A stretch of DNA of 45,000 bases from NCBI GenBank assembly GCA_029261165.1, contig JAJDBV010000003.1:1-45000 (forward strand), given 5' to 3'. Below, one piece after another: positions 28,468-39,244 of this stretch; the first letter of the stretch is position 1; the number at the start of each line of letters is the position of its first letter. Under the pieces are notes generated by a model. The model saw only the letters and a program-made list of their open reading frames with translations. It was not told the DNA's origin and made no database searches. This DNA comes from Nitrospirota bacterium (lineage in GTDB: Bacteria > Nitrospirota > Nitrospiria > SBBL01 > JAADHI01). A program made the translations under genes and the position numbers.

Positions 28468-28535
28468 TATGTAGGCAGAAATCTGAAGGCTATTCGTAAA
28501 ATATGGGGTAAGTACTCAGGCTGCTTCAATTTGGC

Positions 28536-28620
28536 TTAGGACAAGGCACGAGGAGCGCAGAACCCGGAGCGTATGGTTTATACGTGAGGATTCGAGCACC
28601 GCAGCAATGCCGGCCTGGGG
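28536..28620 (+). repeat. Dispersed intergenic repeat, copy 2
   Basis: The counterpart of 16844-16925 on the opposite strand, with a 20-nt identical block at 28581-28600 and the same order of shared segments. It sits between the M50 gene and the 53-aa gene, ending 28 bases before the latter's stop codon. Confidence 0.8.
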
Positions 28621-28647
28621 CAAAAGGGAAGCAAGGTGAGTGCTTAC

Positions 28648-28809
28648 TTAATCGTGTTCCGGTTCGGCCGACCCCTGTCGATGAACAACCTTATCCTCGT
28701 CAAAGATCTCTTGCATTTCGTTGGCAATTTCTTCCGTTTCATTTGGAACAATACGGAGCGGAATTCGGAAGCTTCCTTCCTTTTTTTCGCTTTTTCCCTT
28801 TTCAGACAT
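28648..28809 (-). CDS. Hypothetical 53-aa charged protein
   Basis: A short gene with no recognised family. ATG 28809 is preceded by GGAGAC (minus strand, 5 bases away). The product begins MSEKGKSEKKEG and is rich in Glu, Lys and Asp. The middle, IPLRIVPNETEEIANEMQEI, looks like one strand followed by an amphipathic helix, and the tail is acidic. There is no signal peptide or Cys. It lies just downstream of the structured RNA candidate on the same strand, beyond its terminator stem, and just before the dispersed repeat. Codon use is unremarkable and the ribosome site is good, which is why it is reported despite its size. Confidence 0.6.
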   Translation of the reverse strand: MSEKGKSEKKEGSFRIPLRIVPNETEEIANEMQEIFDEDKVVHRQGSAEPEHD

Positions 28810-28856: not shown

Positions 28857-28916
28857 ATAAAACCCGGAAGCAGACCGAACGATCTCAAAGCGGCTACAGC
28901 ATCCGCGCTTCCGGGT
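28857..28916 (-). terminator. Intrinsic terminator of the RNA candidate
   Basis: A perfect 10-bp stem, ACCCGGAAGC with GCTTCCGGGT (28907-28916 and 28862-28871), holds an inner GCGG/CCGC hairpin. On the minus strand it is followed by TTTTA. It separates the RNA from the 53-aa gene. Confidence 0.65.
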
Positions 28917-28974
28917 CTCGGCGGCGCCGGGGAGCTGCCCCAAGCGTCACTTTTCGTGCTGTGTGACCGTCCTG

Positions 28975-29019
28975 TCAGGGCGTCGCCACCTCACATGCCG
29001 TAGGATTCATACTGCCCAC
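28975..29019 (-). CDS. Possible 14-codon ORF with near-perfect Shine-Dalgarno
   Basis: GTG 29019 lies seven bases after AGGAGG (29032-29027, minus strand). The frame encodes a 14-residue peptide containing MNPTACEVATP and ends at TGA 28977-28975. An internal ATG is at 29010. The ribosome site is far stronger than those of neighbouring genes, so either the peptide is translated (for example as a leader peptide inside the structured RNA) or the complementarity to 16S rRNA serves another purpose. Coding status is unproven. Confidence 0.3.
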   Translation of the reverse strand: MGSMNPTACEVATP

Positions 29020-29164
29020 TGGACCACCTCCTTTCACCGACGCGGAAACTTCACGGCAGGGCCCAGACCCTGCCCTCCCTTGAAAGCGGCTCGCCGAGCG
29101 CCGAACCAAGGAACGCCCCTGCTCATACAGGGACTTGGAGGGGTGTGTCGCCCCTCCTGTTTTC

Positions 29165-29173
29165 AATATAGCA
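29165..29173 (-). promoter_or_regulatory. Extended -10 element of the RNA candidate
   Basis: TGCTATATT on the minus strand matches the extended -10 pattern TGnTATAAT in all but one position. The predicted start falls near 29158, directly before the first hairpin. No convincing -35 is present, which extended -10 promoters do not need. Confidence 0.5.
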
Positions 29174-29177
29174 CATC

Positions 29178-29819
29178 TCATGAGTATTCTTTCCAGTTCA
29201 AGAAATTCTTCTCAAGGTATAAGCGTTCGATATCAAGAGGAATATGAATCTGACGGTGACGCAGAAAAGTGGCAATCGGGCGGAGAGGCAATCCGACCGC
29301 AGCAAGATAATCGCCTTTTAGTTTCTTGATGAACCGTCGGCCACCTCCCTGTAGGGAGTAGGCACCTGCTTTATCAAGAGGTTCATCCGTCCCAACATAA
29401 CGGTCTATCTCATCCCGATGAATCTGGCGCATTTGTATTTCGATCTGCTCCACAGAGATGTCCGCGGAGCCATCGTGAGTATCGATCAGGGCGATCGCGG
29501 TCCAGATATGATGTTGCCGTCCCTGTAAGCGGTGCAGAATTCGCTTGGCATCATCTGGTCCTGAAGGTTTTCCGATCTTTCCTTCTGCATCTTCAATGAG
29601 CGTGTCGCTGCCGATGAGTATGCTTTGCGGAAAAGTCCCTTTTACCGACTGAGCTTTTCCCAGGGCAAAGGCAATGGCGTCTTCTTTTGCTGAATGCGAG
29701 GGGTTCCAGTGTTCTTCAAAGTTGGGCGCTGTCATCTCGTAACGAATGCCCATGAGCGATAAAATTTCTTTTCTGCGAATGGAGGTGGAGGCAAGAACGA
29801 TTCGTGGATCAGGTTTCAT
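29178..29819 (-). CDS. maf: Maf-family nucleotide pyrophosphatase
   Basis: A 213-residue house-cleaning enzyme that hydrolyses non-canonical or modified nucleoside triphosphates. The N-terminal motif is IVLASTSIRRKEIL, and the conserved segments FALGKAQSV, IGSDTLIEDAEGKIGKP and DKAGAYSLQGGG are in their usual order. The C-terminal tail is some 15 residues longer than usual. Whether it acts on dTTP/UTP (YhdE type) or m7GTP (YceF type) cannot be told with confidence. The dus gene ends seven bases upstream on the same strand, so the two are co-transcribed, dus first. Confidence 0.93.
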   Translation of the reverse strand: MKPDPRIVLASTSIRRKEILSLMGIRYEMTAPNFEEHWNPSHSAKEDAIAFALGKAQSVKGTFPQSILIGSDTLIEDAEGKIGKPSGPDDAKRILHRLQGRQHHIWTAIALIDTHDGSADISVEQIEIQMRQIHRDEIDRYVGTDEPLDKAGAYSLQGGGRRFIKKLKGDYLAAVGLPLRPIATFLRHRQIHIPLDIERLYLEKNFLNWKEYS

Positions 29820-38826: not shown

Positions 38827-38935
38827 TTGACTTGTTTCTAATTTCTTGGTACGGTGATATCGGCTTTGTTTCATTAAGTTTAGGAGGTAAGGATTTCCGC
38901 AGAGGTTTTTACATATGCTCCTGCGGTTTTTTTTT
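38827..38935 (+). promoter_or_regulatory. Promoter and early hairpin-plus-T-run before the cold-shock gene
   Basis: TTGACT (38827-38832) and TACGGT (38850-38855) form a possible promoter with a 17-bp spacer. About 40-80 bases later CCGCAG (38897-38902) pairs with CTGCGG (38921-38926) followed by nine Ts (38927-38935). This is a terminator ahead of the cold-shock gene: it could end the YIP1 transcript, release a short RNA or act as an attenuator within a long leader. Confidence 0.5.
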
Positions 38936-38988
38936 AGACCTTGAACCACTGAAGTGAAGCAGCATATCAATAAAAGGAGAACAGTAGC

Positions 38989-39189
38989 ATGCCAAAAGGT
39001 ACAGTGAAATGGTTTAACGGTAGCAAGGGTTTTGGATTCATCTCGCAGGAAGGTGGCGAGGATGTTTTCGTCCATTTTTCAGCCATTCAGGATGATGGTT
39101 TTAAATCGCTTGATGAAGGCCAAGAGGTTGAGTTTGAAATTACCCAGGGCCCCAAAGGTGCTCAAGCATCGAATGTCGTTAAGCTGTAA
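38989..39189 (+). CDS. Cold-shock protein (CspA family)
   Basis: A 66-residue single cold-shock domain that binds single-stranded RNA and DNA. RNP1 is KGFGFISQ and RNP2 is DVFVHFS, both complete. The C-terminus, [20 protein letters not shown], is standard. AAGGAG at 38973-38978 supports the start. A long upstream region with a hairpin and T-run precedes it, and an intrinsic terminator follows. Cold-shock mRNAs commonly have long structured leaders, so regulation by RNA structure is plausible. Confidence 0.96.
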
Positions 39190-39205
39190 TTCACTTAACA
39201 CGTGT

Positions 39206-39244
39206 AAAAAAGCCTCCCGATGATGCGTCGGGGGGCTTTTTTTT
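39206..39244 (+). terminator. Intrinsic terminator of the cold-shock gene
   Basis: GCCTCCCGA (39212-39220) pairs with TCGGGGGGC (39228-39236), followed by eight Ts and preceded by six As, so it can work in both directions. Confidence 0.9.

Follow-up and report, generated by a model that had tools for sequence, protein, structure and literature searches.

The window, the 45,000-nucleotide stretch analysed here (positions 1 to 45,000 of contig JAJDBV010000003.1 from a Nitrospirota bacterium), contains an RNA gene on its minus strand at 28857–29173, between maf and a gene of 53 amino acids. This gene is real and conserved. An earlier note on this DNA had placed here a dedicated RNA with its own promoter, a run of hairpins and a terminator, and these elements are borne out. 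The extended -10 element is present as TGC-TATATT (29165–29173, minus strand), with an equivalent element upstream of the RNA in relatives. A good -35 element was not found upstream of the RNA, and a consensus promoter scan did not report the -10. Hairpins H1, H2 and further helices follow, and the terminator consists of a 9–10 bp stem (arms 28863–28871 and 28908–28916) followed by TTTTAT. The features of the RNA are, in order:

29165–29175, minus strand: extended -10 element TGTGC-TATATT, read from the sequence, and matched by TG(n)TATA(n)T at the equivalent position in relatives; it adjoins the 3' end of maf
28857–29158, minus strand: whole transcript of ~300 nt, its start predicted from the -10; the unit from -10 to terminator is kept in 16–17 Nitrospirota sequences
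29137–29157, minus strand: hairpin H1, whose loop CACA (29144–29147) can pair with UGUG of the ORF tail
29115–29136, minus strand: hairpin H2, with 7 pairs, 4 of which have changes on both sides that stay paired
29036–29114, minus strand: what remains of the 5' domain specific to the clade, namely helix H3 and the hairpins that follow, as seen in the alignment
29019–29035, minus strand: ultra-long Shine-Dalgarno sequence GAAAGGAGGUGGUCCAG, complementary to the 3' tail of 16S rRNA over ~18 pairs including G-U
28975–29019, minus strand: micro-ORF with GUG start, 14 codons V(fM)GSMNPTACEVATP and stop UGA; frame, start and stop are kept in homologues
28985–28994, minus strand: invariant ORF-tail motif GUGAGGUGGC, predicted to pair with the leader or H1 loop and with the 3' motif
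28928–28943, minus strand: hairpin directly 5' of the 3' motif, from sequence and alignment
28920–28926, minus strand: 3' motif CGCCGCC (CGCCACC in relatives), predicted to form helix P0 with GGUGGCG in the ORF tail
28857–28916, minus strand: intrinsic terminator containing inner hairpins and followed by TTTTAT, present in all relatives and nearly invariant

By blastn, 18 of the 58 relatives have the RNA, among them members of other families in the same class. When 17 sequences are aligned over their full length, RNAalifold predicts 63 pairs, and in 22 of these both partners change while pairing is maintained. These compensatory pairs include some in H2, H3 and, in locus L164, part of the terminator stem, which is partially re-paired there; within the 5' domain, the helix of columns 87–100 and 108–121 contains many of them. 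The fold energy is modestly unusual compared to shuffled sequences (z -2.2, with 2 of 100 shuffles equally good). Energy alone would thus not carry the claim, and conservation is decisive. The RNA is present in a single copy in the window's genome. Terminator-like fragments resembling its 3' end occur elsewhere in two related genomes (L044, on contig 81 of G036, and L045, on contig 16 of G011), the first of which looks like a decayed partial copy. A similar insertion of ~20 nt (GGGGACAGATTTCAAAT), possibly a repeat or mobile sequence, is found 3' of the micro-ORF in two homologues from different families (L017 and L018).

The core of the window RNA consists of AAAGGAGGUGGUCCAG, the complement of the 16S rRNA 3' tail, followed by GUG and a 14-codon ORF ending in CEVATP-stop. 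Both the micro-ORF and its very strong Shine-Dalgarno sequence had been overlooked in the earlier note. The most conserved block of the alignment is GAAAGGAGGUGGUCCAG-UGG..., followed by the translation that starts at GUG. The duplex between the Shine-Dalgarno sequence and the 16S tail has a predicted energy of -34.0 kcal/mol, whereas among 40 ORFs of the window the strongest value is -26.6 and the median -12.9; the tail sequence was taken from actinobacterial 16S genes, since the 16S gene is absent from the window's assembly. As read from the alignment, the window's peptide is VGSMNPTACEVATP-stop, and its counterpart in relatives is VGS(x)NPTA(S/C)EVAAS-stop. The micro-ORFs of relatives display synonymous changes, one in-frame indel of 3 nt and three different stop codons, and in three species of another family (L039–L041) an AUG start replaces GUG. 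The earlier proposal of a dedicated RNA holds with regard to separate transcription and termination and to structure, as indicated by covariation, the retained promoter and terminator, and neighbours that vary between clades. Its tacit assumption of a noncoding RNA does not hold, given the in-frame micro-ORF.

The RNA had also been described as unassigned and unlike tmRNA. No Rfam family reaches its gathering threshold within the locus, and neither ARAGORN nor Rfam reports a tmRNA there. However, the locus has a match below threshold to RF02471, Ms_IGR-5 (17.6 bits, E 0.068 in a 471-nt search; gathering threshold 45 bits), which proved to be a real lead through intermediates. A scan of the window's whole genome with RF02471 gave no match, but the controls gave none either. 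With R1, a covariance model built on the core in the window clade, distant copies were retrieved from another two families of the window's class, L042 (32.9 bits, E 5e-6) and L043 (26.4 bits, E 2e-4). These lack the 5' domain and consist of a promoter, Shine-Dalgarno sequence and AUG, followed by MKSDRSTREVAER-stop and MQSKNSTSEVAER-stop, respectively. RF02471 scores the same two loci at 54.6 and 49.3 bits, both above gathering. Since the intermediates are linked to both sides, the window RNA can be placed in the Ms_IGR-5 superfamily by transitivity, and we consider it very likely to be a homologous member and a new 5'-extended variant.

The window RNA and Ms_IGR-5 have in common the Shine-Dalgarno block AAGGAGGUGGUCC, the ORF tail GUGAGGUGGC at the end of an in-frame micro-ORF, a motif directly before the terminator that is predicted to pair with this tail, and the terminator itself. 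The window RNA differs in that it has an extra 5' domain of ~125 nt and a terminator core of its own and lacks the GAAUCC motif. The short leader of Ms_IGR-5, with transcription starting just 5' of the Shine-Dalgarno sequence, is not found in the window; conversely, the part of the 5' domain at 29036–29114 is missing in minimal family members. The window RNA thus represents a 5'-extended, previously unlinked branch, from Nitrospirota, of a superfamily that has until now been recorded only as an actinobacterial sRNA.

Rfam annotates Ms_IGR-5 as a noncoding actinobacterial sRNA, a description in which "noncoding" fits neither the window nor the family, as members of RF02471 carry the micro-ORF too, including those from Mycobacterium and Micromonospora. 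RF02471 scores above threshold in Mycobacterium, Nocardia, Micromonospora, L042, L043, Zixibacteria and Deltaproteobacteria/Proteobacteria loci. Despite the actinobacterial label, the matches L055, L059, L054, L042 and L156 include Zixibacteria, Nitrospirota and Deltaproteobacteria. RNAs of the superfamily are expressed in relatives. In Streptomyces lividans and S. avermitilis, Ms_IGR-5 has been described as a transcribed sRNA (PMC8079986, PMC8780764). In M. abscessus and M. smegmatis, its homologues belong to the sRNAs on which ribosome footprints were recorded (PMC4974804); the authors of that study warn that such footprints on ncRNAs can stem from co-sedimenting RNPs. A description of the ORF was not found in the literature on the family, within a search limited to open-licence papers, and a literature search by the peptide letters returned only noise.

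To explore the distribution of the core, 85,000 species genomes were scanned with the pattern AAGGAGGTGRTCCA-N12-42-GTGAGGTGGC, which gave at least 120 matches. Among the matches listed, the unit of Shine-Dalgarno sequence, ORF, GUGAGGUGGC and stop occurs in many Actinobacteria, as well as in Acidobacteria, Zixibacteria/GN15, Deltaproteobacteria, Spirochaetia, Myxococcales and Sumerlaeia (taxa as labelled in the records). The superfamily therefore spans at least 7 bacterial phyla, with a patchy distribution. Neither the window RNA nor the core pattern was matched in the plasmid and viral collections. One match, L125 from Rhodobacteraceae, has a stop position that does not fit and was treated as chance or divergent.

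Nearly all pattern matches translate, in the same frame, as a start, a variable stretch and EVA-x-x-stop preceded by T, S, R or C. Of the 101 distinct copies among the matches listed, 98 combine an in-frame start with a stop at one fixed position; the stop codons there are TAG (80), TGA (10) and TAA (9). An in-frame start is found in 10.5% of cases when the variable part is shuffled, and the other two frames give 0/101 and 7/101. The spacing from GGAGG to the start ranges from 7 to 14 among distinct copies, with a mode of 10; across phyla the complementarity to the 16S tail extends over 13–18 nt and the ORF over 11–19 codons. Judging from these patterns, the micro-ORF is most probably translated. 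Only its last nucleotides are conserved, and the N-terminal half varies freely; selection seems to act on translation itself and not on the peptide. When the third codon positions in the pattern were freed, 21 of 267 genomes of the class had exactly one copy (none with a reversed control), and all copies still read GAGGTGGC. That this sequence is unchanged even with the third positions of GAG and GTG free indicates an RNA constraint on top of the coding one. Six of 80 genomes from the phylum of Mycobacterium contained one copy each, and the control none.

The architecture shared across phyla begins with a leader CACN, followed by the Shine-Dalgarno sequence, the ORF with its tail N'GUGAGGUGGCNG, five nucleotides, the stop and a stem, P1. 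On the 3' side of P1 there is usually GAAUCC, then the motif CAG(N)YCACC and the terminator. Within this architecture, covariation suggests that the ORF tail pairs both with the leader (the H1 loop in the window) and with the pre-terminator motif. For the latter helix, P0, six columns are paired in all 17 sequences of the window clade and the seventh covaries. Across phyla, where the tail reads GGUGGCNG, the wobble base of the Ala codon can pair with the 3' motif in 105 of 114 cases compared to 78.6 expected (0 of 20,000 permutations), as U-A (83), C-G (11) or G-C (9); the next position is nearly invariant and therefore little informative (89/114 vs 86). The leader CACN is paired with the tail N'GUG in 73 of 85 cases compared to 53.6 expected (0 of 20,000 permutations), in G-C, U-A and A-U versions. 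One side of these tail pairings is nearly fixed. P1, formed between the sequence just 3' of the stop and that just 5' of GAAUCC, has a value of -12.0 with its own partner and -8.6 (sd 0.37) when permuted (0 of 20,000). As the sequences are related and phylogeny was ignored, all these permutation counts overstate significance; the paired types nevertheless recur in separate phyla.

In the window clade, RNAalifold pairs columns 16–19 of the H1 loop with columns 218–221 of the ORF in the 17-sequence alignment. Position 19:218 is U-A in 12 sequences, A-U in 4 and broken in 1 (L003). Since the same tail position pairs with the H1 loop and shows this swap, H1 appears to take the role of the short leader. 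The window's own H1 loop–tail pairing would comprise 4 bp, and the leader pairing is generally 4–5 bp.

We propose that the RNA is a ribosome-gated switch in which translation exposes its 3' motif, a reading to which we assign a probability of about 0.5. In the rest state, the tail would be clamped by its pairings with the leader and the 3' motif, with the Shine-Dalgarno sequence and start displayed in the loop closed by the leader–tail pairing and open to the 30S subunit. A captured ribosome would translate to the stop and cover the tail and the beginning of P1, and its footprint would melt the leader–tail helix, P0 and P1, exposing the 3' motif. With the stop in the A site, GAGGUG would lie ~8 nt upstream of the P-site codon, which is a usual Shine-Dalgarno spacing, so that a terminating ribosome may linger. 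The freed motif of the CAG-YCACC type resembles the anti-Shine-Dalgarno segment of 16S rRNA and could putatively bind other RNAs. The peptide would be largely a by-product, and the RNA would report, and perhaps transmit by base pairing in trans, the availability of ribosomes with an intact 3' tail. More tentatively, these RNAs may represent an unrecognised cross-phylum class of ribosome sensors, in which a near-perfect complement of the 16S tail recruiting a ribosome, and a throw-away micro-ORF, allow translation to unclamp the RNA and arm a trans-acting 3' motif similar to an anti-Shine-Dalgarno sequence.

The main rival to this switch is a ribosome decoy or hold, which would tie up 30S subunits through the extreme anti-Shine-Dalgarno complementarity and the short ORF, with no exposed 3' effector. 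The long complementarity in all phyla, and the position of GAGGUG in the ORF tail, suitably spaced for a terminating ribosome, are in line with such a role. It is nevertheless rather unlikely, as it leaves the covariation of the tail with the leader and the 3' motif unexplained and a pure decoy does not need a reading frame. The frame, with its conserved start, stop and C-terminal EVA-x-x, could instead mark a functional micropeptide, the structure serving only to control expression. This is improbable: the length (11–19 aa) and N-terminal part are free to vary, the flanks of EVA change (R/S/C before it, A/V/E/D/G after it), and EVA itself is dictated by an RNA motif that is conserved at synonymous positions too. 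The freedom of the N-terminal half is the reason why we rate a peptide function below a translation-dependent function of the RNA.

Conversely, the strong conservation of the motif as RNA and the Rfam listing as an sRNA could be taken to mean a purely noncoding structured RNA, with the frame a coincidence of conserved motifs. We regard this as quite improbable, considering that a middle part of variable length keeps the frame with an in-frame start, that three different stop codons occupy one position, and that mycobacterial homologues have ribosome footprints (PMC4974804). The micro-ORF might also belong to a longer protein of 68 aa in the same frame (28975–29181), which runs on upstream without a stop in the window and in several relatives. 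Its ATG, however, lies upstream of the promoter -10, the 5' hairpins contain indels and compensatory changes, and the frame is closed shortly upstream in L008, L010, L011, L014 and many minimal members; the longer protein was rejected on this closure and is exceedingly improbable. The arrangement of a leader ORF and a terminator is also that of a leader-peptide attenuator, here of the 53-aa ORF, and the order maf–RNA–53-aa gene, which the earlier note had pointed out, is indeed kept in relatives of the same order. In other families of the class, however, metF or other genes lie 5' of the RNA and a different gene lies downstream; clades outside the order have no neighbour in common, and the downstream gene is often on the opposite strand. 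Neighbours that differ in this way point to a stand-alone gene and not a leader. As the terminator is also nearly invariant, attenuation is highly unlikely; it was rejected on the neighbourhood, where a conserved downstream gene on the same strand was not found. All-against-all clustering of neighbours returned mainly spurious high-GC ORFs.

The proposed switch resembles leader-peptide attenuators in its short ORF followed by a stem and an intrinsic terminator, where the ribosome position could switch the structure, but differs in that no downstream gene is conserved and the terminator appears constitutive. Like tmRNA, the RNA is structured with an internal short ORF; it lacks the tRNA-like domain that, together with a tag ORF, defines tmRNA. 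Dual-function or peptide-coding sRNAs are small RNAs with a short ORF (surveyed in PMC5521070), a feature that is shared here, whereas in the present RNA the ORF tail appears to act as a structural hub, conservation of the peptide is lacking and the spread is across phyla. A family listed as a noncoding sRNA of Actinobacteria is thereby extended to at least 7 phyla, with an apparently translated micro-ORF and an exceptionally strong ribosome-binding site. If the interpretation is correct, a widely distributed RNA would serve as a readout of the availability of ribosomes or of the 16S 3' end.

Several other features were noted in the window. The 53-aa ORF (28648–28809, minus strand), which has no significant Pfam match, adjoins the RNA in Manganitrophaceae-type relatives. 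Next to it, at 28500–28650 on the plus strand, lies an element with strong predicted structure (fold z -4.6), of which the window's genome contains at least 40 diverged copies; it is a dispersed repeat similar to MITE/REP elements. Further along, 38853–39241 on the plus strand matches the cspA thermoregulator of Rfam (78.3 bits, threshold 78), here in Nitrospirota.
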